A DNA stretch of 29,853 nucleotides from a virus, in the IMG/VR virus record IMGVR_UViG_3300013005_003478, positions 1 to 29,853 of that record; one strand, given 5' to 3'. This document shows positions 5,218 to 29,853 of the stretch, one piece after another. Position numbers and translations under genes: made by a program. How positions within the stretch are numbered: the first letter of the stretch is position 1; every line of letters starts with the position of its first letter. The notes beneath the pieces are model-generated. The model worked only from the letters and a program-made list of their open reading frames with translations, made no database searches and had not been told where the DNA came from.

Positions 5218-5916
5218 ATGACAAACGAACAAAGAAAAAACATAGAACTAGTTAAATCTGGATTTGCTAACGGTATCTCAATACAATTAGCAACGAAACA
5301 AGCAATATTTGGACCAGATGCTCGACTAACGGATGAAGATAAACAAGAGATTATTGATAATGCAGCTTACCATTATGGTGAGTTTCTTCGAGCATTAGGA
5401 GTGGCTTGGGAATCCGATCCTAATTCAGATAATACACCTCGCCGTGTTGCAAAGGCATATGTAAACGATTTATGGCGTGGTAGATACGAACCAATGTCAG
5501 ATATTACATCTTTCCCATCTGATGGTTATGACGGTATTGTGTTTGAGGGAGGAATTCCTTTAACATCAATGTGTTCGCATCATCATCAAACAATTGAAGG
5601 CCTAGTTCATATTGCGTATATCCCAGCAGAAAATGGCAATGTAGTAGGTTTAAGTAAATTGAATCGCGTAGTTGAACATTTTGGCAGACGAGGTGCAATT
5701 CAAGAACAATTGACAGTAGCAATACAACATGCAGTAGACGAACTTATTACTGACAATAAAGGAGTAGCTGTAATGATTGAAGCAACACATAACTGTGTAT
5801 CATGTAGAGGTGTTAAGCATCGAGGCGCTTCAATGAAAACTGCAAAATTATCAGGAGCATTCCTAAATGATGGAAATGCAAGATCAGAATTTTATCAATT
5901 CGTAAAAGGTTACTAA
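5218..5916 (+). CDS. folE: GTP cyclohydrolase I
   Basis: A 232-residue type I GTP cyclohydrolase converting GTP to 7,8-dihydroneopterin triphosphate, the first step towards 7-deazaguanines. The zinc ligands are present: C119 and H122 in SMCSHHHQ (usually SMCEHH) and C193 in HNCVSCRGV, with H191 alongside. DNTPRRVAKAY near 71-81 is the conserved N-terminal helix motif, and KLNRVVEHFGRR near 147-158 is the family's KL.R.v..farR region. The 50-residue N-terminal extension is helical and typical. The stop codon overlaps the QueD-like start. Because QueD- and QueE-like genes follow directly, the product most likely feeds 7-deazaguanine rather than folate synthesis. Confidence 0.95.
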   Translation: MTNEQRKNIELVKSGFANGISIQLATKQAIFGPDARLTDEDKQEIIDNAAYHYGEFLRALGVAWESDPNSDNTPRRVAKAYVNDLWRGRYEPMSDITSFPSDGYDGIVFEGGIPLTSMCSHHHQTIEGLVHIAYIPAENGNVVGLSKLNRVVEHFGRRGAIQEQLTVAIQHAVDELITDNKGVAVMIEATHNCVSCRGVKHRGASMKTAKLSGAFLNDGNARSEFYQFVKGY

Positions 5917-6377
5917 TGGCAAAATACAATTCAACAAAATTATTTGACGGTTACTCAACTTGTTTCCGTCAATGGCGAGCAGAAGGAACTCATTGTAAAT
6001 TCCTACACGGGTATGCAGTATCATTTCGAGTATGGTTCGAAGGCGAGTTAGATTATCGTAACTGGGTATGGGACTTTGGTGGAATGAAACGATCTAAAAC
6101 TAAGATTGCTGGTATGTCTCCAAAAGATTATTTTGCTTGGTTATTAGATCATACTACAATTGTAGCTGACGACGATCCATATTTGGACCAATTTATACAA
6201 ATGGATAAAGATGGTATTATTCAATTACGAATATTATCTGCAACCGGCTGTGAAAAGTTTGCTGAGTATTTATACAACATAATCAATATATTCTTGCAAG
6301 AAGAAACTGATGGTCGTGTAAAGGCAACAAAAGTAGAAGTTTATGAACACGAAAGAAACTCAGCAAGTTATGAATGA
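5916..6377 (+). CDS. queD: QueD-like 6-carboxy-5,6,7,8-tetrahydropterin synthase (divergent)
   Basis: A 153-residue T-fold protein of the QueD/PTPS family, expected to turn dihydroneopterin triphosphate into 6-carboxytetrahydropterin. C27 and H31 in THCKFLHGY correspond in number and spacing to the catalytic Cys27 and zinc His31 of E. coli QueD. LDHTTIVADDDPYLDQF near 77-93 and VEVYEHE near 141-147 match the catalytic His region and the pterin-anchoring Glu. Two zinc ligands differ: the second His of HGH is Y33, and position 16 is Cys in STCFRQW instead of His. It sits between folE and queE, which supports the assignment. The exact reaction remains inferred. Confidence 0.8.
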   Translation: MAKYNSTKLFDGYSTCFRQWRAEGTHCKFLHGYAVSFRVWFEGELDYRNWVWDFGGMKRSKTKIAGMSPKDYFAWLLDHTTIVADDDPYLDQFIQMDKDGIIQLRILSATGCEKFAEYLYNIINIFLQEETDGRVKATKVEVYEHERNSASYE

Positions 6378-6741
6378 AAAGATAATTACAAGTTGGCAAG
6401 AAAATGGTATGCAATATATCATTATTGCCCGACCGATTGAAAATGCAACTGCAACGCCCAAAGGGAATGATTCAGAAATGCTTTCTGTTTATGAATATTT
6501 AGGTGGAACTCCTAGTCATGGAACTGGCGATAAAGTGTATAGACACGCAAAGCAGACAGGAGCTAAAGTTGGTACAACTGACGTATCTACTGCGAAATAT
6601 ACTGGACCAATTATGACATATGAACGCGCATTTCTAGATGTATATTTCAATAAGCAAACAACTAGCTCAGCACCAGTAGTAGCAACACCACAACCTGAGA
6701 CATATACATATGATCCAATTAATGATGACTTACCATTTTAA
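6370..6741 (+). CDS. Small protein with SSB-like C-terminal tip
   Basis: A 123-residue protein I cannot assign to a family. An N-terminal beta-rich region (residues ~1-90) is followed by a Thr/Pro/Ala-rich linker and a final NDDLPF. That architecture, and the D-D-L-P-F ending, mirror bacterial single-stranded DNA-binding proteins, whose acidic tip recruits repair and replication proteins. No convincing OB-fold motif is visible, so it may be a divergent SSB or a tail mimic. I use the ATG at 6370, which sits in the recurring AAGTTATG context and overlaps the QueD stop by eight bases. An upstream ATG at 6343 is also possible. It lies between queD and queE. Confidence 0.65.
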   Translation: MNEKIITSWQENGMQYIIIARPIENATATPKGNDSEMLSVYEYLGGTPSHGTGDKVYRHAKQTGAKVGTTDVSTAKYTGPIMTYERAFLDVYFNKQTTSSAPVVATPQPETYTYDPINDDLPF

Positions 6742-6743
6742 TT

Positions 6744-7517
6744 ATGAATAAAAGAATTACAGATTACACAAAAACATTGCCTATAGTAGAACTATATAGA
6801 TGTGTACAAAGCGAAGGAAGTCGATTTGGTAGACCTACAATTGCTGTTCGAACTACTGGTTGTACACATAGATGTTGGTTTGGTGAGGGCGGTTGGTGCG
6901 ATAGTTGGTACACAAGTATCCACCCAGAAAAAGGACAATTTACATTCAACGACATCGTGAAGATATATGATGAAAATCCACATATCAGAGAAATGATGTT
7001 AACGGGAGGTTCCCCGACAATGCATCCAGCATTAGTAAATGAACTTACATGGTTTGCTCATGAACGAAACATTCACATTACGATCGAAACTGAGGGCTCG
7101 CATTTTGTTGAGACCGATTATCCTATCGATCTTATATCTCTTAGCCCTAAGTTTTCAAATAGTGTTCCCATGGTGGGAATTGCCACACCACAGGGTGATA
7201 TTACCGATGAAAAGATGGTTAGACAACATAACAAGTATCGATTGAATATGGATGCTATTAAAGCTACGTTGCATTATCATACAGATTATCATTACAAACC
7301 AGTATGGGATGGCACTCCAGAAAACCTAAAAGAGATTGAAGAATTTAGAGTATCGCTTCATATTCCAAAAGACAAAACATACATCATGCCAGCTGGCGAT
7401 ACTAGAGAAGAATTAATACATATGTATCCAATTGTGTTTGATATGTGTGCTGAGCATGGTTATAATATGACAGGTAGAGACCACATCATTGCATTTGATA
7501 CTAAACGAGGAGTATAA
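6744..7517 (+). CDS. queE: 7-carboxy-7-deazaguanine synthase (radical SAM)
   Basis: A 257-residue radical SAM enzyme of the QueE family, which contracts 6-carboxytetrahydropterin to 7-carboxy-7-deazaguanine. The N-terminus VELYRCVQSEGSRFGRPT is the usual 'QGEG..G.p' entry, followed by RTTGC40THRC44WFGEGGWC52DSW. The third cluster cysteine is seven rather than two residues after the second, so the motif is CX3CX7C, but the following CDS is preserved. LTGGSPTMHP near 90-99 is the GGE-type SAM site, and ETEGSH near 118 and LSPKFSN near 131-137 are also QueE features. It starts two bases after the previous stop, and its stop overlaps the thioredoxin start. Confidence 0.92.
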   Translation: MNKRITDYTKTLPIVELYRCVQSEGSRFGRPTIAVRTTGCTHRCWFGEGGWCDSWYTSIHPEKGQFTFNDIVKIYDENPHIREMMLTGGSPTMHPALVNELTWFAHERNIHITIETEGSHFVETDYPIDLISLSPKFSNSVPMVGIATPQGDITDEKMVRQHNKYRLNMDAIKATLHYHTDYHYKPVWDGTPENLKEIEEFRVSLHIPKDKTYIMPAGDTREELIHMYPIVFDMCAEHGYNMTGRDHIIAFDTKRGV

Positions 7518-7772: not shown

Positions 7773-8072
7773 ATGGAATGGAAACCAATTGGAGATCAAG
7801 TACTCCTAAAACAATTAGAAAAGCAAGATAAAACACAGAGTGGTATCATCATCATGAATTCATTGGATGATTATATTGAATGTGATGTAATGGCAGTTGG
7901 TGATGGGTTATTTACTCAAACCGGAAATAAAATTCCAATGACTGTAAAGTCTGGAGATCGAATAAAAATCTATTCAGGAAACTTAGGTAACCAGAAAAAA
8001 GTTCAATTAGGATCAGTAGATTTTATTTTAGTTCGTGAACATGAAATTGCAATGATAAATACACGTCCATAA
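7773..8072 (+). CDS. GroES-like co-chaperonin (T4 gp31-like)
   Basis: A 99-residue Cpn10-family protein. WKPIGDQVLLKQLEK at the start, the flexible loop region DKTQSGIIIM around 19-28, and the end VDFILVREHEIAMI are characteristic of GroES. The mobile loop with its hydrophobic III tripeptide is the GroEL-contacting part. T4 gp31 replaces host GroES during folding of the major capsid protein, and this protein may do the same for its host GroEL. Its placement among nucleotide-modification genes suggests early expression. The start has the AATAAGTTATG context and the stop overlaps the next start (TAATG). Confidence 0.88.
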   Translation: MEWKPIGDQVLLKQLEKQDKTQSGIIIMNSLDDYIECDVMAVGDGLFTQTGNKIPMTVKSGDRIKIYSGNLGNQKKVQLGSVDFILVREHEIAMINTRP

Positions 8073-20950: not shown

Positions 20951-22414
20951 ATGGAGTTATCAAAAAAGAAAAAAATCCTACTACTAGGTGATGATTTTCG
21001 TTTGCCATCCGGGATCGGAACTATTAGCAAAGAAATTATTTTAAACACAGTTAAAGAATTTGATTGGGTTCAATTAGGAGCTGCAATTAATCATCCAGAT
21101 GCCGGGCAAGCATTTGATTTGTCAGCTGAAGTAATCAAAGAAACCGGCATATCAGATGCATCAGTCAAATTGATTCCATGGAATGGATATGGTGATCGCA
21201 ATATTCTGTTTGCAATTATCAATCAAGAACAACCTGATGCAATTCTTCACTTTACTGATCCACGTTATTGGACATGGTTGTATGCAATCGAGCATGAAAT
21301 AAAAACAACATTCAATATTCCAATTACATATTATTCTATCTGGGATGATTTACCATATCCAATGTGGAACGCACCTTTTTATGCTAGCTGTGATATGATT
21401 ATGGGAATTAGCAAGCAATCAGACAATATCCATAGAGAAGTGCTTAAACAGAATGGATTTGAGGTAATTAACTATGATGATTCCTGGTATATGCCAACAG
21501 CCAAGAAATGGAACCAGATACTTACCGGATATGTTCCTCATGGGTTAAATCACAATGTATTCAAACCATTAATCTCAAATGATCCAGCATATGTTGCAAT
21601 GCATAAAAAAATCAAGCAAGATAACAAAGTTGATTTTGTTGTGTTTTGGAATAATCGCAATATTCGAAGAAAACAGCCAGGCGATGTAGTTTTAGCATTT
21701 AAAACGTTTATAGACACATTACCAGCAGACCAACAAAGCAAAATTGCATTAGTTATGCATACTCAGGCAATAGATGAAAATGGTACAGACTTAAAAGCAA
21801 TTGCAAAAACATTGGCACCACAATGCAAAATTATTTTCTCAGAACAAAAAATAAACGCAGCTGAATTAAATGCAATGTACAATGTGGCTGATGTTACAAT
21901 TAATATCGGTAGCAATGAAGGTTGGGGACTTAGTTCAACTGAGGCAATTTTAGCAGGATGCCCAATCATTAACAATGTTACTGGTGGATTGCAAGACCAA
22001 TGTGGATTTGAAGATGAAAATGGAGAATGGCTTCGTTTTGATGGCAAATTTTCAACTAATCATACCGGCCGATTTAAAAAACATGGAATATGGGTAAAAC
22101 CAGTATTCCCAAGCAACAGATCACTACAAGGCTCGCCAGCAACACCATATATTTTTGATGACCGAGTTCAATTCGAACAAGTTGCTGAAGCAATTGGATA
22201 TTGGTATACAATGACCGAAGAAAATAGAGCTGCATGCGGATTTGAAGGAAGAACATGGGCATTAGCTAATGGATTAACGGCAGAACAGATGGGTAACAAA
22301 ATGATTTCAATGTTTAGAGATTTATTTGCAATGAACAGAGAATTAAGACCATTATTCACAGTAACAAAAGTAGAAACTCCTAAATACGAACAAACAGGAA
22401 TAGTAGCACAATGA
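20951..22414 (+). CDS. Glycosyltransferase family 4-like protein
   Basis: A 487-residue GT-B glycosyltransferase. ILLLGDDFRLPSGIGTISKE near 9-28 is the N-terminal acceptor-domain opening. VDFVVFWNNRNIRRKQPGDV near 225-245 begins the donor domain. SNEGWGLSSTEAILAGCPIIN near 321-341 is the E-x7-E donor motif of GT4 enzymes, followed by NVTGGLQDQ. Donor and acceptor are unknown. The AAGGA ribosome-binding site at 20941-20946 supports the start. It overlaps the second GT4 gene by four bases, so the pair is co-translated. Confidence 0.88.
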   Translation: MELSKKKKILLLGDDFRLPSGIGTISKEIILNTVKEFDWVQLGAAINHPDAGQAFDLSAEVIKETGISDASVKLIPWNGYGDRNILFAIINQEQPDAILHFTDPRYWTWLYAIEHEIKTTFNIPITYYSIWDDLPYPMWNAPFYASCDMIMGISKQSDNIHREVLKQNGFEVINYDDSWYMPTAKKWNQILTGYVPHGLNHNVFKPLISNDPAYVAMHKKIKQDNKVDFVVFWNNRNIRRKQPGDVVLAFKTFIDTLPADQQSKIALVMHTQAIDENGTDLKAIAKTLAPQCKIIFSEQKINAAELNAMYNVADVTINIGSNEGWGLSSTEAILAGCPIINNVTGGLQDQCGFEDENGEWLRFDGKFSTNHTGRFKKHGIWVKPVFPSNRSLQGSPATPYIFDDRVQFEQVAEAIGYWYTMTEENRAACGFEGRTWALANGLTAEQMGNKMISMFRDLFAMNRELRPLFTVTKVETPKYEQTGIVAQ

Positions 22415-23643
22415 GAAAAGTAGTTATAGCGTCGCCAGTAGCGACACAAAGCGGTTATGGTCATCACGCACGCGAAGTGATAACAAATATTATAGAACAA
22501 CGAGGGTCTGAATGGGATGTAAAACTAGTTTCATTGCCATGGGGACATACCCCAATGACTTATCCAATTTCTGTGGATTTGCAACTTCGTATAATTCCAT
22601 TGCCATTAACAGAACAACCAGATGTATGGATTCAAATTTCAGTTCCAAATGAGTTTCAAGCTGTTGGAAAATACAATATTGGTGTTACGGCAGGTACTGA
22701 AGGAGATATTTGTCCGGCACAATGGATTGAAACCATCAACAAAATGCAATTGATAATTGTACCTAGTGAATTTACTCGTTCTACATTTGAGGAAACAGCG
22801 AAACGCAACAACTTATTGATTACAACTCGAATTGAAGTAGTTCCAGAATATTTTGATGAAACAGTGTATAAATCATCAACTGATATCGTATTATCTGAAT
22901 TAGATTCAGTTACCGAATCATTTGCCTTCTTATCAGTCGGACATTGGTTGCAAGGCCAATTAGGCGAAGACCGAAAAAACATAGGAGCCATGGTACATTG
23001 CTTTTTCCATGCATTTAAAGATGTTAAAGATGCACCAGCACTTATCCTAAAAACATCAGGTGCAACATATAGCATCATGGATCGAATGGATATTGAAGGC
23101 CGAATCAATCAAGTTCGAGATATGTACGGTACTGCAAAATTACCCAATGTTTATTTAGTGCATGGAGATTTAACGGATGCTGAAATGAATTCACTATACA
23201 ATCATCCAAAAGTCAAAGCATTTGTGTCATTTACAAAAGCAGAAGGATTTGGAAGACCATTATTAGAATTCTCAGCAACAAGCAAACCAATTATTGCGCC
23301 GCATTATTCAGGTCAAGCAGATTTCCTCAAAAAGGATTTTATTTGTGCACTACCAGGCCAATTAACACCGATCCATCCATCGGCACAAAATGAGTTTTTA
23401 ATTGGTGATGCAAAATGGTTTAGTTTTGATTATGGATATGCTTCTGCCATGATGAAAGATGTTCGTAAAAACTACAAGAAGTGGGCTGAATTAGCAAAAC
23501 GTCAACGTTATTTTGTTAATTCAACATTTACAAAAACTGCGGTTGCTGAAGTATACAAACAAGTATTAGAAACAGTGGATACTGGGTTAGAATCAATTCC
23601 AAAGCCAATTGAATTAAAATTGCCTAAGCTTCAAAAGATTTGA
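22411..23643 (+). CDS. Glycosyltransferase family 4-like protein
   Basis: A 410-residue GT-B enzyme coupled to the preceding glycosyltransferase by an ATGA overlap. The N-terminus KVVIASPVATQSGYGHHARE has the typical SGYG..a.e loop. FLSVGHWLQGQLGEDRKNIG near 173-192 opens the donor-binding domain, and KAEGFGRPLLEFSATSKPIIA near 275-295 carries the E-x7-E motif. It resembles the upstream enzyme in layout but not closely in sequence, so they probably add different sugars. Codon use is like the phage core, including TTG for leucine. Confidence 0.88.
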   Translation: MRKVVIASPVATQSGYGHHAREVITNIIEQRGSEWDVKLVSLPWGHTPMTYPISVDLQLRIIPLPLTEQPDVWIQISVPNEFQAVGKYNIGVTAGTEGDICPAQWIETINKMQLIIVPSEFTRSTFEETAKRNNLLITTRIEVVPEYFDETVYKSSTDIVLSELDSVTESFAFLSVGHWLQGQLGEDRKNIGAMVHCFFHAFKDVKDAPALILKTSGATYSIMDRMDIEGRINQVRDMYGTAKLPNVYLVHGDLTDAEMNSLYNHPKVKAFVSFTKAEGFGRPLLEFSATSKPIIAPHYSGQADFLKKDFICALPGQLTPIHPSAQNEFLIGDAKWFSFDYGYASAMMKDVRKNYKKWAELAKRQRYFVNSTFTKTAVAEVYKQVLETVDTGLESIPKPIELKLPKLQKI

Positions 23644-23672: not shown

Positions 23673-24320
23673 ATGAAAATAAGTTACGCAGTTACGGTAT
23701 GCAATGAAGTCGAAGAAATTAAACGGCTCATTGCATTCCTTTTAAAACATAAACGAGAACAAGATCAGATTTTAGTCTTAATGGATTTACAAAAGTCAGA
23801 TTTCTACGATAAAATTCCTGAAAAAGAACAAGTGCATGAGTTCATTATGCAACATCACGCGAAAGCTCACTTACAAGTTGCATTTAGATCATTAAACAAT
23901 GATTTTGCTGCATTTAAGAACAATATAGCTTCATATTGTACTGGTGATTATATTTTTCAAATAGATGCTGATGAATTGCCACATGAAAAGTTAATTGAAA
24001 TACTCCCAGACCTGTTAGAAGAAAACTGCGATTGTGATGTATTTTTAGTGCCACGTGTTAATACGGTAGAAGGTATGCAACAAGATCATATGCAACAATG
24101 GGGCTGGGCGGTAAATGAAAAAGGATGGATTAATTGGCCAGACAATCAATGGAGAATTTGGAAAAACAAACCTGAGATAAAATGGATCAATAAAGTGCAT
24201 GAACGATTGGATGGATTCAAATCATACACAGTTTTGCCAGAAATGGAAGAATTTGCATTATATCACCCAAAGACAATCGAACGACAAATTAAACAAAACA
24301 ATTATTACAGTACATTATGA
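23673..24320 (+). CDS. Glycosyltransferase family 2 protein
   Basis: A 215-residue GT-A fold enzyme. SYAVTVCNEVEEIKRLI at the N-terminus is the classical GT2 opening, FKNNIASYCTGDYIFQIDADE near 85-101 contains the DxD metal site (DAD), and INKVHERLDG near 172-181 is the catalytic-region motif of WaaE/KdtX-like GT2 enzymes. The substrate is unknown. Its codon use (leucine TTG present) resembles the phage core, unlike the next gene, which it overlaps by four bases. Confidence 0.88.
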   Translation: MKISYAVTVCNEVEEIKRLIAFLLKHKREQDQILVLMDLQKSDFYDKIPEKEQVHEFIMQHHAKAHLQVAFRSLNNDFAAFKNNIASYCTGDYIFQIDADELPHEKLIEILPDLLEENCDCDVFLVPRVNTVEGMQQDHMQQWGWAVNEKGWINWPDNQWRIWKNKPEIKWINKVHERLDGFKSYTVLPEMEEFALYHPKTIERQIKQNNYYSTL

Positions 24321-25111
24321 ATATAATTACTTCAAAATTAATGGGCGGTTTAGGTAATATGTTATTTCAGGTTGCAGCAGGATACTCATTATCAAAAAAA
24401 ATTGGGGCTGAGTATTTAATTAATACGCAATATACAGAGATCAGTCATGGCCATTCTAGACCAAAATCACCAAGTGATTATTTAGATACGATTTTTAATA
24501 AACTTGTTATATATACACATAATCATGATCTAATCGAAATTCACGAACCAAATTTTCGATATAATCCGATAAACGATACTACATCTAATATTATATTACA
24601 TGGATATTATCAATCTTATAAATATTTTAATGATATTGAAATACAAAAATTATTCGCACCAGATATTAACATGTTAACTAAATTAAATAGTAAATATCCT
24701 GTATTACAAGATAACACTGTTTCACTACACATTCGTCGCGGTGATTATATAACATTATCAGATTTTCATCATAATTTATCTATTTCATATTATAATAATG
24801 CAATCAAACAATTCCCAATTGGAACGAAATATCTAGTTTTTAGTGATGATATCGATTGGTGTAAAAACATATTTATCGGAAATGAATATACATTCATAGA
24901 ATCACAATCAGATATCGAAGACTTATATCTAATGTCGTTATGCAAACATAATATTATAGCAAATTCTACATTTAGTTGGTGGGCAGCTTGGCTTAATTGT
25001 AATACGACAAAAACAGTAATATATCCTAATCGATGGTTCGGCCCTGCAACTATTAATAATTTATCAACAATAGATATGTTTCCAGCAGATTGGGTATGTA
25101 TTAACGAATAA
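24317..25111 (+). CDS. GT11 alpha-1,2-fucosyltransferase-like protein
   Basis: A 264-residue enzyme with the family 11 glycosyltransferase motifs: MGGLGNMLFQVAAGYSL (9-25), HIRRGDY (138-144) for GDP-fucose binding, and STFSWWAAWLN near 217-227. These enzymes add fucose in alpha-1,2 linkage in O-antigens and capsules. It is the first gene where leucine is written almost entirely as TTA or CTA with no TTG found on reading, marking the start of a compositionally distinct block. No GDP-fucose synthesis genes (gmd, fcl) lie in the window, so the donor would come from the host or genes elsewhere. Confidence 0.9.
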   Translation: MNIITSKLMGGLGNMLFQVAAGYSLSKKIGAEYLINTQYTEISHGHSRPKSPSDYLDTIFNKLVIYTHNHDLIEIHEPNFRYNPINDTTSNIILHGYYQSYKYFNDIEIQKLFAPDINMLTKLNSKYPVLQDNTVSLHIRRGDYITLSDFHHNLSISYYNNAIKQFPIGTKYLVFSDDIDWCKNIFIGNEYTFIESQSDIEDLYLMSLCKHNIIANSTFSWWAAWLNCNTTKTVIYPNRWFGPATINNLSTIDMFPADWVCINE

Positions 25112-25118
25112 TATAAGT

Positions 25119-25958
25119 ATGGAAATTAATTTATTTGACACGGCATTTGAGCATTTAATAACAGAAGACGGTAAATATTCTCACGTTTTTTCTAAGAGTA
25201 CACAATATACAACATATGTAAAAAATCAAACCAATTGGCAAGGAATTACTTTATTTACTGACAGTTTTATAAATTCAGGCATCGCTCCAGGAATTACTAG
25301 TAAACATAAGATTGGTTGGTTAATGGAGTCTAGGGAATTACACCCGGGCTTTTATACTACATTTGATCAATATAAAGAGCATTATGATTTTGTATTAACT
25401 CACGATCCTGAACTATTAAAAAATTATCCAACTAAAACTAAAATGTATCCGATCGGCGGTTGTTGGATACATGAATCTAATTGGAAAATGCATGATAAAG
25501 CAAAGTTAGTTTCAATGATATATTCTGGACGACAGCAATTAACCGGACATCGATTACGACACGTAATTGCAAATAGATTTCAATCATCTGGGATTGATTA
25601 TTACGGACATGGGTCTGCAAGACCATTAGTCAACAAAGAAGATGGATTACAAGATTATCAGTTTTCCATAATAATAGAAAATTCTAATCAATTAAATTAT
25701 TTTACCGAAAAAATTGTAGATTGTTTAGTTGTAGGAACAATACCAATATATTGGGGTTGTCCAAACATATCAGAATTTTTTAACACTGATGGTTTTATTT
25801 GTTTTAATTCTATAGATGAGTTAGATGATATTTTAGCATCACTTACTCCGGAATTATATCAATCAAAATTAAAATATGCTCACGAAAATTTAGAATTAGC
25901 AAAACAATATGCTGTGACAGAAGATTGGTTATTTAAAAATATATTTACTAAGTTATGA
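25119..25958 (+). CDS. GT10 fucosyltransferase-like glycosyltransferase
   Basis: A 279-residue protein whose C-terminal half matches the GT10 (alpha-1,3/4-fucosyltransferase) donor domain: QFSIIIENSNQLNYFTEK near 180-197, continuing to GTIPIYWGCPNISEFFN near 206-222. The N-terminal half is a divergent acceptor domain with KIGWLMESRELHPGF near 63-77. The assignment to the family is good, but fucose specificity is inferred. It starts seven bases after the GT11 gene and overlaps the next gene by four bases. No leucine TTG codons were found on reading. Confidence 0.82.
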   Translation: MEINLFDTAFEHLITEDGKYSHVFSKSTQYTTYVKNQTNWQGITLFTDSFINSGIAPGITSKHKIGWLMESRELHPGFYTTFDQYKEHYDFVLTHDPELLKNYPTKTKMYPIGGCWIHESNWKMHDKAKLVSMIYSGRQQLTGHRLRHVIANRFQSSGIDYYGHGSARPLVNKEDGLQDYQFSIIIENSNQLNYFTEKIVDCLVVGTIPIYWGCPNISEFFNTDGFICFNSIDELDDILASLTPELYQSKLKYAHENLELAKQYAVTEDWLFKNIFTKL

Positions 25959-26452
25959 TATTTCCAGAAGTTACCGTGTATCGGCCTGATATTTTTACTG
26001 ATTTCAGGGGTGATCTATTAACTCTGTGGAATCATGATGAGTTTGAACCAAAACTAAATTTTAAACATGATAAAATATCATCATCTAGACAAAATGTAAT
26101 ACGAGGATTACATGGCGATAATAAATCATGGAAACTAACTAGTTGCCTGTCAGGAGAATTATATTTTATTGTAGTAGACAATCGACAAGATTCAGTAAAC
26201 TATCTAAAGTGGGATTGGATAATATTAGATGATAAAAGCAGAAAACAAGTATTAACGCCTCCTGGTTTTGCAATCGGGTTCCTAGTATTAAGCAAACAAG
26301 CATTACTTCATTATAAATGGGCATACGACGGAGCATATGCAGATGTAGATGATCAGTTTACATTAAAGTGGAACGATTCTAACATTAATATTTATTGGCC
26401 TATAGATTCGCCGATATTATCACAACGAGATACAAAAACTAAACTAATATAA
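25955..26452 (+). CDS. RmlC-like cupin, dTDP-4-dehydrorhamnose 3,5-epimerase family
   Basis: A 165-residue cupin of the RmlC family. FRGDLLTLW near 17-25, VIRGLHGD (48-55) with the catalytic-type His53, LSGELYFIVVDNR near 65-77, TPPGFAIGFLVLS (101-113) and the end WPIDSPILSQRDTK are all family features. In canonical RmlC the PPGFAHGF segment has His where this protein has Ile107, so the reaction may differ (for example a 3- or 5-epimerase acting on another nucleotide sugar). It is coupled to the upstream GT10 gene. Confidence 0.8.
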   Translation: MIFPEVTVYRPDIFTDFRGDLLTLWNHDEFEPKLNFKHDKISSSRQNVIRGLHGDNKSWKLTSCLSGELYFIVVDNRQDSVNYLKWDWIILDDKSRKQVLTPPGFAIGFLVLSKQALLHYKWAYDGAYADVDDQFTLKWNDSNINIYWPIDSPILSQRDTKTKLI

Positions 26453-26456
26453 ATTT

Positions 26457-27200
26457 ATGGAAAAAGAAATTAGAAAATTAATCGTAGATGCAGCATTTCA
26501 TGCCAAACATGGTCATATTCCAAGTGCTCTATCGATTGTAGATATTATATGTGCATTACATGAAACTATGACACCTAATGATATTTTTATTTTAAGTAAA
26601 GGTCATGGTTGTTTAGCATATTATGCATATTTAGTTATCATTGGCGAATTAACTATCGATGAACTTCGCAAATTTGGCAAATCTGGAAGTAAATTAGGAG
26701 GACATCCGGATAAAAATAAAATCAATAAAGTATATACATCAACTGGATCGTTAGGGCAAGGATTACCAACAGCTATTGGCGCAGCTATAGCAAGAAAGAT
26801 ACTTAACAAACCTGGCAAATTTTATTGTATAATTGGTGACGGTGAATGCAATGAAGGAAGTATATGGGAATCTGTAATGTTAGCTGCAGCTCATAAATTA
26901 GATAACTTAGTTTGTATTGTTGATTATAATCAATCTCAGATTCGATCATTGCCATTAGGCAATCTTAAAGATAAGTTTCAATCATTCGGATGCAATTCAA
27001 TTGAAACTGATGGACACGATATAAATGAAATTATGCAATCATTAATAAATACACAAACAAATATGCCTACATTTATTATTGCTAACACAATTAAAGGTAA
27101 AGGAATTAATCAACTAGAATCAAATATGTTTACCTGGCATCATAAGGCACCAACATTAGAAGAATATACACAATTTATACAAGAAATATATGAGAACTAA
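26457..27200 (+). CDS. Transketolase N-terminal subunit (TPP-binding)
   Basis: A 247-residue protein equal to the thiamine-diphosphate-binding half of transketolase. LSKGHGCLAYYAYL near 46-59, GGHPDKNK near 81-88, TGSLGQGLPTAIGAA (96-110) and the GDGECNEGSIWE motif (127-138), ending with DYN at 156-158, form the Mg-TPP site. It lacks the pyrimidine-binding half, which is encoded by the next gene in another frame with an 11-base overlap. Split transketolases exist in bacteria and archaea. In a sugar cassette it would transfer two-carbon units to build or alter an unusual sugar. Confidence 0.92.
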   Translation: MEKEIRKLIVDAAFHAKHGHIPSALSIVDIICALHETMTPNDIFILSKGHGCLAYYAYLVIIGELTIDELRKFGKSGSKLGGHPDKNKINKVYTSTGSLGQGLPTAIGAAIARKILNKPGKFYCIIGDGECNEGSIWESVMLAAAHKLDNLVCIVDYNQSQIRSLPLGNLKDKFQSFGCNSIETDGHDINEIMQSLINTQTNMPTFIIANTIKGKGINQLESNMFTWHHKAPTLEEYTQFIQEIYEN

Positions 27201-28059
27201 ATTCGCAGAAATATGCAAAAATATTGTACAAACGGATGATAAATCTGTAATATTAATAGGAGATATTAGTCACTACTTATTGCGAGATGCCCAAGACAGC
27301 GCACCGGATAGATTTTTTAATATAGGAATTTGTGAACAATCTACAGTTAATGTTGCAGCAGGTATGTCTCTTGAAGGAATGCGTCCAATCATACATACGA
27401 TCGCGCCATTTGTTGTAGAAAGAGCATATGAACAAATAAAAGTTGGGTTAGGATATCAAAATACCGATGTTACAATTATTACTGTTGGCGGAACGTATGA
27501 TTATGCTGATTTGGGTTGTACTCATCATTGTTACAGTGATATTGCATTAATGAGAAGTATTCCAGGAATGGATGTATATGAACCTGGATCTGCTTCTGAA
27601 TTCGAGCAATTATTCAACCAATCATGGGCTAATGGCAATCCTAAGTATTTTCGATTATCAAATCATTCACATACTCAAGATCTAATAGTTAAATCTAATG
27701 AGATTAATATTATTCAAAAATCTAAAAATAATAAATACGTGTTCGTAACAGGTCATTTATTAGACGATGTATTGCATGATGAAGAAATTGGAATATTCTA
27801 TGTTTCTACATTATCAAATATTTCAACAGAGTCTATTAATGAAATTTCAAAAGTATTTAACAGTGACAGTAAAATATTCTCAGTAGAAAATCATTTTATT
27901 ACTGGAGGCTTAGGAGACTTAATAAGTTCTACATTTAATGTAGCGGTAACTAGAATCGGAATACAAAATAAATTTATTACAGAATACGGTACATATGATG
28001 ACTTACGACAAGCATCTGGTATGGATACTAACACAATATTAAACAAATTGAAATTATGA
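27190..28059 (+). CDS. Transketolase C-terminal subunit (pyrimidine-binding)
   Basis: A 289-residue protein matching the second half of transketolase or the DXS-like fold. RFFNIGICE49QSTVNVAAGMSLEGMRP contains the conserved Glu that activates TPP. SDIALMRSIPGMDVYEPGSASEFE near 115-138 and a C-terminal domain with SVENHFITGGLGDLI near 235-249 complete it. It should assemble with the product of the preceding gene into a working enzyme. The overlap of 11 bases suggests balanced translation. Substrate unknown. Confidence 0.92.
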   Translation: MRTKFAEICKNIVQTDDKSVILIGDISHYLLRDAQDSAPDRFFNIGICEQSTVNVAAGMSLEGMRPIIHTIAPFVVERAYEQIKVGLGYQNTDVTIITVGGTYDYADLGCTHHCYSDIALMRSIPGMDVYEPGSASEFEQLFNQSWANGNPKYFRLSNHSHTQDLIVKSNEINIIQKSKNNKYVFVTGHLLDDVLHDEEIGIFYVSTLSNISTESINEISKVFNSDSKIFSVENHFITGGLGDLISSTFNVAVTRIGIQNKFITEYGTYDDLRQASGMDTNTILNKLKL

Positions 28060-29078
28060 AACACGATTACGAAAAAATTATATCGCAACTAAATTTAACT
28101 AAGCTTAGTAATGCTAATATTTTAATTACTGGTGCTAATGGGCTTATAGGAGGATTTCTAGCTGATTTATTCTCATATATGAATGATACTCACGATTACA
28201 ACATTAAATTAACATTAACTAGTTTATCAACAACACCTAATCGAATAATACATTTGTTAGATAGAGATGATGTTACATATATAAGTACTGATTTATCAAA
28301 AGATAATTTAATAGTTCCTAATATTGATTTTTGTTTCTATTGTGCAGGATATGCTCAACCTTCAAAATTTTTATCACAATCGATGACTACTTTATTACTT
28401 AATTCGTATGGGGTAGCTAATACATTTGAATCTATTTTTAATAGTAATCCAACCGCAACATGTATTTATTTAAGCAGTTCAGAAATATACTCAGCATCTG
28501 ATAAACAAACAGCACATACTGAATCAGATAATATTAATATTGATTTGAATAATAAACGAAATTTTTATATTTTAGGAAAAGTCAACGGTGAATTAATTGT
28601 TAACAATTTACGAAACCAAGGATATAATGCAATTTCAGCGCGAGTATCATTATGTTACGGCCCAGGCGTATTGGAAGATGATTCTCGAGTATTAAGTGAA
28701 TTAGTACAGAAGGCGCTTGGGTCAAACGATACAATACAATTATTTGATGATGGTAGTGCTAAACGACGTTATTTACATGTTACTGACTTTACATCCATGC
28801 TATTAAACATTTCATTAAATGGAACACAGAATGTATATAATATATGCGGCGAAGAAGAATGCACAATTTATGAATTGGCCGAAATTATAGGAGCAACTGT
28901 TAACAAAGAAATTATAAAAGGTAAATCAAATAATGCAGTATCAGTTTCTGCACCAACTATCGTATGGAATTCATTGGATCGATATAAAAATGAATTTGGT
29001 AGTTTTCAATTAAAATCTATAAAGGACGGTGTAGTTGAATTCATAACATGGTATAAAACAATTTTAAATAAAGATTAA
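28056..29078 (+). CDS. NAD-dependent sugar-nucleotide epimerase/dehydratase (extended SDR)
   Basis: A 340-residue extended short-chain dehydrogenase. NILITGANGLIGGFLADLF (21-39) is the glycine-rich NAD loop, YLSSSEIYSASD near 138-149 supplies the catalytic Ser, and Y171-ILG-K175 is the YxxxK pair. VSLCYGPG and RRYLHVTDF in the C-terminal half are typical of sugar-nucleotide epimerases and dehydratases. The specific substrate cannot be told. It overlaps the transketolase C gene by four bases and is followed after one base by a methyltransferase gene. Confidence 0.9.
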   Translation: MKHDYEKIISQLNLTKLSNANILITGANGLIGGFLADLFSYMNDTHDYNIKLTLTSLSTTPNRIIHLLDRDDVTYISTDLSKDNLIVPNIDFCFYCAGYAQPSKFLSQSMTTLLLNSYGVANTFESIFNSNPTATCIYLSSSEIYSASDKQTAHTESDNINIDLNNKRNFYILGKVNGELIVNNLRNQGYNAISARVSLCYGPGVLEDDSRVLSELVQKALGSNDTIQLFDDGSAKRRYLHVTDFTSMLLNISLNGTQNVYNICGEEECTIYELAEIIGATVNKEIIKGKSNNAVSVSAPTIVWNSLDRYKNEFGSFQLKSIKDGVVEFITWYKTILNKD

Positions 29079-29079
29079 T

Positions 29080-29697
29080 ATGAAATTTTACGTTCCATTT
29101 GATATGCAAGTATATAATAATTTTGTAAAGGCAAATCAAACACAAAATTTACAGTACACTTATAATTTAACTAAAGATTCGATTGTGATAGATGCAGGAG
29201 GATACCGAGGAGAATTTACAGATATTATACATAATAAATATAATTGTTCTGTACACATCTTCGAACCGATAAAATCAATGTTTGATGCATTAGAATCTAA
29301 ATTTAGTTCAAATCCAAAAATTATTATTAATCAATTAGGATTATCAAATTCGACAAAAAAAGATATAATTTATTTAGATAATGATGGGTCATCACTATAC
29401 GGATCTGGCAATAGCGAAACAATTCAGTGTATTGATATTTCTAAATATTTACGTTCAAATAAAATACAGTCGGTGGATTTACTTAAGTTAAATATAGAAG
29501 GATCTGAATATGATGTAATAGAAAGATTAATCGATCAAAAAATGTTATCAACTATAAAAAACTTACAAGTGCAGTTTCATAGATTTGTGCCAGATTGTGA
29601 CATACGTAGAATAGCTATTCATGAACAATTATCTAAAACACATACATTGTCGTGGAATTATGATTGGATTTGGGAAAGTTGGTCGATAATTGAATAG
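29080..29697 (+). CDS. FkbM-family methyltransferase
   Basis: A 205-residue SAM-dependent methyltransferase of the FkbM type. SIVIDAGGYRGEFTDII (34-50) is the SAM-binding loop, VHIFEPIKSMFDAL near 58-71 the second motif, and LLKLNIEGSEYDVIERL near 130-146 the conserved FkbM C-terminal signature. FkbM enzymes O-methylate sugars and polyketides; here a sugar of the cassette is the likely acceptor. The ATG is one base after the SDR stop. Confidence 0.9.
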   Translation: MKFYVPFDMQVYNNFVKANQTQNLQYTYNLTKDSIVIDAGGYRGEFTDIIHNKYNCSVHIFEPIKSMFDALESKFSSNPKIIINQLGLSNSTKKDIIYLDNDGSSLYGSGNSETIQCIDISKYLRSNKIQSVDLLKLNIEGSEYDVIERLIDQKMLSTIKNLQVQFHRFVPDCDIRRIAIHEQLSKTHTLSWNYDWIWESWSIIE

Positions 29698-29749: not shown

Positions 29750-29853
29750 ATGGATACAAATATACAACTAGTAAGTGATACAATTAATCGTGCTGATATT
29801 GACAGTCTAATCGACTGGTTAAAACAAGATCCGATACCGAGATTAACCAAAGG
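29750..29853 (+). CDS. DegT/DnrJ-type sugar aminotransferase, N-terminus (partial)
   Basis: The window ends inside an open frame of 34 complete codons. NIQLVSDTINRADIDSL and WLKQDPIPRLTKG resemble the N-terminus of PLP-dependent sugar aminotransferases of the DegT/DnrJ/EryC1/StrS family (the 'lv.dtid..di..l..wl...prLTkGp' opening). The PLP lysine lies beyond the window edge, so the call rests on the first 34 residues and on the sugar-cassette context. Such enzymes aminate keto-sugars made by SDR dehydratases like the one upstream. Confidence 0.7.
   Translation, partial: MDTNIQLVSDTINRADIDSLIDWLKQDPIPRLTK

Follow-up and report, generated by a model that had tools for sequence, protein, structure and literature searches.

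What does a transketolase (TK) encoded in two pieces do within the glycan cassette of a phage? The question is raised by a virus record of 29,853 bases, the whole of which is called the window here, where phage replication genes are followed, from position 20951 on, by glycosyltransferase and sugar genes that are all co-directional (Table 1). The last of these genes only begins in the window; viral contig L001, in which the cassette genes common to both are 100% identical to those of the window, extends about 2 kb beyond the window's end and carries the gene whole.

Table 1. Position of the split transketolase and its neighbours in the window
Feature	Position	Strand	Basis or remark
DnaB-like helicase, ribonucleotide reductase, DNA polymerase, clamp loader	ahead of the cassette		phage replication genes
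Two GT4-like glycosyltransferases	20951-22414, 22411-23643	+	Pfam Glycos_transf_1, 4.6e-6 and 7.2e-5
GT2 glycosyltransferase	23673..24320	+	Pfam Glycos_transf_2, 1.3e-9
GT11 (fucosyltransferase-type) glycosyltransferase	24317..25111	+	Pfam Glyco_transf_11, 2e-28
GT10 (fucosyltransferase-type, GDP-sugar) glycosyltransferase	25119..25958	+	Pfam Glyco_transf_10, 1.9e-10; PDB alpha-1,3-fucosyltransferases
RmlC-like cupin epimerase	25955..26452	+	nearest Campylobacter GDP-4-keto-heptose 3- or 3,5-epimerases (PDB 8db5)
TKN, split transketolase N-half, PP domain, 247 aa	26457..27200	+	Pfam Transketolase_N, 6e-36
TKC, split transketolase C-half, Pyr and C-terminal domains, 289 aa	27190..28059	+	Pfam Transket_pyr, 7.7e-21
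Extended SDR, 340 aa, third gene of the conserved triad	28056..29078	+	Pfam Epimerase, 1.4e-24
FkbM-family methyltransferase	29080..29697	+	TIGR01444, 61.1 bits (cut-off 37.7)
ColD-type PMP-dependent 3-dehydrase, start only	29750..29853	+	whole gene is L001:8561-9721

The split transketolase pair

TKN and TKC are read in different frames and share 11 nt; each open reading frame has an ATG and a stop codon of its own. TKN carries IGDGECNEG and the ThDP-site Asn, and E49 of TKC aligns with E411 of E. coli TktA. This confirms the first-pass annotation, which had described the two halves as overlapping genes with intact TPP-site residues. In the PDB, TKN was most similar to the N-half chain of the split TK from Carboxydothermus (6yak, 1.5e-45), and its Pfam score was 124.5 bits for Transketolase_N versus 57.7 bits for DXP_synthase_N. 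TKC scored almost equally against the NCBIfam models for DXS and TK (89 and 88 bits, respectively), and its AlphaFold2 model (pLDDT 94.0, pTM 0.92) matched DXS with a Z score of 33.7, the Carboxydothermus split TK (6yaj) with 31.7 and E. coli TK with 28.5. PHROGs contained no family for TKN and placed TKC in a family of unknown function, and a BFVD fold search returned nothing at E<=0.001.

Both halves are under purifying selection, with dN/dS values of 0.028 and 0.037 against L002 and of 0.060 and 0.070 against L004 for the two halves, and the pair is conserved and, by selection, functional. Since viral relatives and cellular loci have the two genes arranged alike, and purifying selection acts on both, the pair is not one gene split by sequencing; a frameshifted or broken full-length TK is likewise excluded by the intact reading frames, the conserved arrangement and the low dN/dS. 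TKN and TKC probably form one ThDP enzyme, an alpha2beta2 assembly like the split TK of Carboxydothermus hydrogenoformans (6yaj/6yak), in which the PP domain and the Pyr and C-terminal domains also lie on separate chains, as described in an excerpt of PMC7661550. That enzyme is the nearest solved relative by sequence for both phage halves; unlike the phage pair, it is, according to the same excerpt, the only TK of its organism and not a glycan-locus gene.

Relatives, locus types and GDP-sugar neighbours

Scans of viral contigs yielded 20 + 8 loci, from which 12 redundant ones were removed; after L011 and L017 had been dropped for want of a TKC match of the required length, 14 non-redundant viral loci were left (L029 is the window itself). 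A cellular scan of one genome per species, based on two peptide patterns covering window residues ~66-82 and thus lying outside the acceptor residues tested below, found 161 relatives; the analysis covers the best 80 of these. In all of these 80, the N-half was directly upstream of the C-half, and their owners spanned many bacterial phyla and one nanoarchaeon. The family therefore reaches far beyond the Streptomycetes, with 161 relatives in one scan and members in phages. Our search of the open-access literature returned no description of it. Matches in the 'phages' collection were confined to less than 60% identity (45 and 28 records for the two halves), and many of them are apparently bacterial DNA. 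No cyanophage record was among the matches to either half; the first-pass annotation had mentioned cyanophage transketolases as known carbon-metabolism genes.

The third gene of the module is an SDR. The gene that immediately follows TKC is a homologue of the window's SDR in 12 of the 14 non-redundant viral loci and in 29 of the 80 cellular loci (best 80 of 161), and the SDR belongs to a conserved TKN-TKC-SDR module. Its residues S142, E143, Y171 and K175 were invariant (40/40). They form a dehydratase-type S-S-E...YxxxK active site, in which the Glu differs from the Fcl-type reductase compared. Because this Glu, of the GMD/dehydratase kind, is present in 40/40, a reductase step is unsure and the SDR may instead make the keto acceptor. 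The FkbM gene that follows seems dispensable for the TK-SDR module, since in L003 (7896-8040) only the two ends of the gene match and the triad is intact.

Three neighbours point to GDP sugars, as judged from their nearest relatives. The RmlC-like protein matched GDP-4-keto-heptose epimerases, which we take to be Campylobacter proteins, with 137.9-149 bits (149 for 8db5), versus at most 88 bits for RmlC of the dTDP type (1dzr 88). A few of its eight top PDB entries are named after dTDP-rhamnose and are presumably Campylobacter proteins of the same set. The RmlC-like epimerase proposed earlier is thus present, but its nearest relatives act on GDP sugars and not on dTDP sugars, and a dTDP-rhamnose reading was rejected on the scores. 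The SDR and the methyltransferase were also correctly named; the supposed aminotransferase, by contrast, is a ColD-type dehydrase. Its complete copy on L001 scored 220.6 bits with ColD versus 107.5 bits with perosamine synthetase (PDB), and in its FGHHLSTIEGG motif His-His replaces the PLP lysine. ColD being nearest and His standing in place of the lysine, the DegT-family gene is assigned as a ColD-type 3-dehydrase, and the aminotransferase or perosamine reading was rejected. Further along the cassette on L001, after the ColD-type gene, lies GDP-mannose 4,6-dehydratase (GMD, 326 aa). Enzymes for an NDP-4-keto-3,6-dideoxy sugar are thus found in one cassette, which is readable as making GDP-4-keto-3,6-dideoxymannose. 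The GT10 and GT11 transferases are consistent with a GDP-fucose-like donor.

Three locus contexts were distinguished. Type A, the window's type, has the order TKN-TKC-SDR, with a GMD or GDP-fucose-synthase-like gene in many loci. Type B combines a cupin epimerase, a GMD-like gene, a B12 radical-SAM protein and GDP-heptose genes, and in type C the split TK has PDH-E1-like alpha and beta genes as neighbours, giving two ThDP enzymes per sugar locus. For comparison with the 29 SDR-type cellular loci, 47 of the 51 non-SDR cellular loci were used, the four without room downstream being left out. A GMD or GDP-fucose-synthase-like gene was found in 18/29 SDR-type versus 1/47 non-SDR loci (p=4e-9, uncorrected for kinship; Fisher tests here treat the loci, the best 80 of 161, as independent). 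The corresponding values were 1/29 versus 19/47 for heptose genes (HddA, HddC or GmhA homologues), 0/29 versus 14/47 for a second ThDP E1 pair, and, within the stretches examined, 8/29 versus 0/47 for the ColD-type dehydrase. The ColD-type gene was accordingly missing from the stretch examined in 21/29 type A cellular loci; three further type A loci (L052, L072 and L093) contain Lys-type relatives of it. In many loci, the TK-SDR module is followed by the gene for a protein of ~310 aa with a weak methyltransferase match, here X308 (L008:7936-8859; L038:9899-10846). X308 was present in 16/29 type A loci and shared a locus with the ColD-type gene in only 1 of the 23 having either (Fisher p=0.0097, loci treated as independent). 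As the ColD-type gene is missing from most type A stretches and X308 is often found instead, the acceptor may vary, or the ColD-type dehydrase may serve another sugar.

Seven type B loci (L034, L036, L039, L049, L050, L085 and L089) contain a cupin epimerase, X308 and homologues of GDP-heptose kinase/guanylyltransferase, often also with the GMD-like gene and the B12 radical-SAM protein. Type C includes L037, L048, L059, L065, L067, L079, L086, L090 and L095. Homologues of E. coli talB, rpiA and rpe were sought with tblastn in all 108 viral and cellular loci, and none matched at E<=1e-5. The first-pass annotation had named relatives placed with pentose-phosphate genes as the observation that would count against its preference for a glycan role over carbon metabolism; their absence from these loci, and the position of the pair among nucleotide-sugar genes, favour that preference. 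Judged by these gene neighbourhoods, the split TK family is one of sugar tailoring and not of pentose-phosphate metabolism.

A quick maximum-likelihood tree was built from 95 C-half rows, including 8 controls, after seven short rows had been dropped. One group held 86 of the 95 rows (SH-aLRT 99); outside it were seven other split TKs, TktA and the long-branched viral row L028. The window's phage group of nine viral rows joined a Sediminibacterium MAG with a support of 100. Viral type A rows fell in more than one place in the tree, so phages have probably taken up genes of this family on more than one occasion. The viral contig L028 carries a divergent split TK with E1-, GMD- and radical-SAM-like genes, resembling type C. 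In viral contigs L017-L020, the TK halves are shorter (213 and 151 aa) and lie among phage structural genes, with no SDR; Campylobacter phage records made up 14 of the 41 matches to their short C-half at E<=0.01. The transketolase-like pyrimidine-binding proteins of Campylobacter phages (IBB35, H6SUI2) resemble the TK C-half as well, with a weak structural match (E 2e-3), but H6SUI2 is only 171 aa long and had no sequence match to the window's TKC at 1e-5 in the 'phages' collection.

Active-site residues

Residue numbers were mapped onto E. coli TktA and checked against the TktA protein sequence; the roles assigned to them follow in part an excerpt of PMC5073344. TKN of the window keeps the equivalents of H26, H66, H100, H261, D155 and N185, and TKC keeps E411 (E49), H473 (H112) and R358 (R2). 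Across the family, with redundant viral copies counted, the N-half histidines were retained in 91/91 (H26), 90/91 (H66), 91/91 (H100) and 88/91 (H261) sequences, and E411 and H473 each in 88/88 C-halves. In TktA, His100 contacts the hydroxymethyl group of the donor.

The site that would hold the sugar phosphate and acceptor is different. Its residues R358, S385, H461, D469 and R520 read R, Y, G, L and N in the window, where S385 has become Y29, H461 G100, D469 L108 and R520 N158, so that only R358 is kept. R91 is absent from the window and from all N-halves (91/91, redundant viral copies counted). In a non-redundant count of 79 C-halves, taken from loci with called ORFs, position 461 was Gly and R358 was kept in 79/79, and Arg was found at 520 in 0/79. 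Among type A C-halves (27 cellular and 12 viral), position 385 was aromatic in 37/39 and position 469 was Leu in 38/39; type B C-halves kept D469 in 8/9. Seven unrelated split TKs, used as controls, kept R520 in 6/7, H461 in 3/7, D469 in 2/7 and S385 in 1/7, and had an aromatic residue at 385 in 1/7. Since several of these controls also lack H461 and D469, the loss of these two is not specific to the family, whereas an aromatic residue at 385 and the absence of R520, each seen in only one control, are more telling. As far as the alignment indicates, the family has kept the residues of TK (EC 2.2.1.1) chemistry and lost most of the sugar-phosphate-holding site. The Carboxydothermus split TK differs here from the phage pair in keeping His, Asp and Arg at 461, 469 and 520 (alignment read by eye).

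The same three positions as Y29, L108 and N158 of the phage are altered in the E. coli TK variant S385Y/D469T/R520Q (PDB 5hht), which is described in an excerpt of PMC5073344 as shifted from phosphorylated to non-phosphorylated aldehydes; there, Y385 hinders phospho-sugar binding, and the engineers removed the R91-D469 salt bridge. That variant is laboratory-made, and the phage enzyme adds H461 to Gly and the loss of R91 and has other residues at 469 and 520. If the reading given below is true, evolution would have arrived at nearly the same acceptor-site changes as engineers at three key positions, and the family would offer natural catalysts already without most of the sugar-phosphate clamp.

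Proposed two-carbon branching and its alternatives

We consider it somewhat more probable than its negation (roughly 0.55) that the split TK is dedicated to nucleotide-sugar tailoring, transferring a hydroxyacetyl unit to the ketone of a GDP-4-keto sugar, with the SDR finishing a branched surface sugar. In the proposed route, GMD would form GDP-4-keto-6-deoxymannose, and the ColD-type dehydrase would remove the 3-OH to give a GDP-4-keto-3,6-dideoxy sugar, possibly with C5 epimerisation by the RmlC-like protein. For the split TK, the donor of the hydroxyacetyl unit, a two-carbon ketol, might be hydroxypyruvate or a ketose, for example; by joining this unit to the C4 ketone, the enzyme would give a tertiary alcohol with a glycoloyl branch. 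The SDR would reduce this product or finish it in another way, unless its part is to make the keto acceptor. Transfer of the sugar to the virion, or to a glycan on the surface of the infected host, would fall to the GT10/GT11-type transferases. The sequence itself provides the order of the genes, the family, the pattern of residues, the type of dehydrase and the GDP-type neighbours; from these we infer the acceptor, donor, product, order of steps and glycan target. The two-carbon transfer suggested earlier, read here as going to a keto sugar, has gained ground through the loss of the phosphate/acceptor site and through GMD with the ColD-type gene, and the reaction remains a conjectural one. 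In its full form, the proposal is that the virus encodes a ketone-accepting TK building a GDP-linked, C4-branched 3,6-dideoxy octose, a hydroxylated and GDP-based counterpart of yersiniose, within an uncharacterised but widespread nucleotide-sugar TK family with near-engineered changes at three positions; this we hold only tentatively, at somewhat less than even odds.

Yersiniose synthesis is the closest precedent for this logic, with a split TK standing where YerE acts and a GDP-linked sugar. In yersiniose synthesis, the acceptor is made by a C3-dehydrase of the ColD/RfbH kind, and YerF is the partner of YerE in the module. An excerpt of PMC12247030 gives CDP-3,6-dideoxy-4-keto-D-glucose as the substrate on which YerE places a two-carbon unit; like the proposed phage enzyme, YerE is a ThDP enzyme that puts two carbons onto an NDP-3,6-dideoxy-4-keto sugar. 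It belongs, however, to the decarboxylase superfamily and uses a CDP sugar and pyruvate, whereas both phage halves match transketolase families, not that superfamily, and have GDP-type neighbours. Closer in enzyme kind are the split TKs of the miharamycin and amipurimycin pathways, for which transfer of hydroxyacetyl to a keto sugar has been proposed (PMC12247030, section 2.3). Compared by description, these too sit beside keto-sugar-forming oxidoreductases, but in antibiotic clusters of Streptomyces instead of a phage cassette. Section 2.3 of this 2025 review counts 13 putative ketone-accepting split TKs, proposed solely on the strength of gene clusters, all from Streptomycetes and none characterised, and gives acceptance of a ketone by any TK as not demonstrated to date. 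The window would thus hold a known kind of enzyme, a split TK, with possibly a new reaction, and as the phage TK comes with the genes expected to make its acceptor, the question is directly testable. If the hydroxyacetyl-transfer reading is true, two-carbon branching would be added to the known changes that phages make to glycans.

Several alternatives were weighed. GMD and the ColD-type dehydrase could make ordinary GDP-colitose beside an unrelated TK product. More generally, the two-carbon unit might go to another acceptor, such as an aldehyde or, ahead of nucleotide activation, a precursor in free or phosphorylated form, to give a ketose or chain-extended sugar, with the ColD-type dehydrase and GMD forming a separate colitose/fucose pathway. 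The absence of the ColD-type gene from most type A cellular stretches speaks for this, as do the GDP-heptose-type genes in the non-SDR loci, with which a single acceptor for the whole family does not agree; the mostly lost phosphate clamp argues against phosphorylated acceptors, and a GMD or Fcl gene does occur in most type A loci. We regard such an acceptor as unlikely, if worth keeping in mind. That the enzyme is instead DXS- or YerE-like, decarboxylating pyruvate and transferring acetyl, is a reading we consider distinctly unlikely: the C-half is slightly nearer DXS in both model and NCBIfam score, but the N-half is clearly of the TK kind and the equivalents of His26, His66, His100 and His261 are retained almost throughout. 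With the N-half TK-like and not DXS-like, a hydroxyacetyl donor would be favoured over an acetyl donor.

The pair could also be an ordinary TK that feeds sugar phosphates into the glycan, such as sedoheptulose-7-P as a heptose precursor. Heptose genes do lie near the family in the non-SDR loci, and the nearest relatives of the RmlC-like protein are GDP-heptose epimerases; in the SDR-type loci, however, a heptose gene was found only once, three of the four mapped phosphate-contacting residues of TktA are lost from the window protein, and the TK of the host would supply sedoheptulose-7-P already. The supply of this compound for heptose was therefore rejected for the window's locus type (1/29) and could hold for the other types; overall, this explanation appears improbable. 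Phage auxiliary genes of the pentose phosphate pathway exist, but a role of this kind in boosting host carbon metabolism is highly improbable here and was rejected, given the lack of talB, rpiA and rpe homologues in the 108 loci, the position of the TK genes within a glycosyltransferase cassette, and a tree and residue pattern that set the family apart from TktA.

Among ten viral records, mostly fragments, Gp23 and Terminase_6C were each found in one. Outside the cassette, GTP cyclohydrolase and QueE-like genes at 5218-7517 of the window suggest phage 7-deazaguanine (preQ0-type) synthesis, and a GroES-like co-chaperonin gene lies at 7773-8072 (PHROG 1.3e-16). The nearest relative of the window's DNA polymerase is that of Microcystis phage Mel-JY01 (43%).
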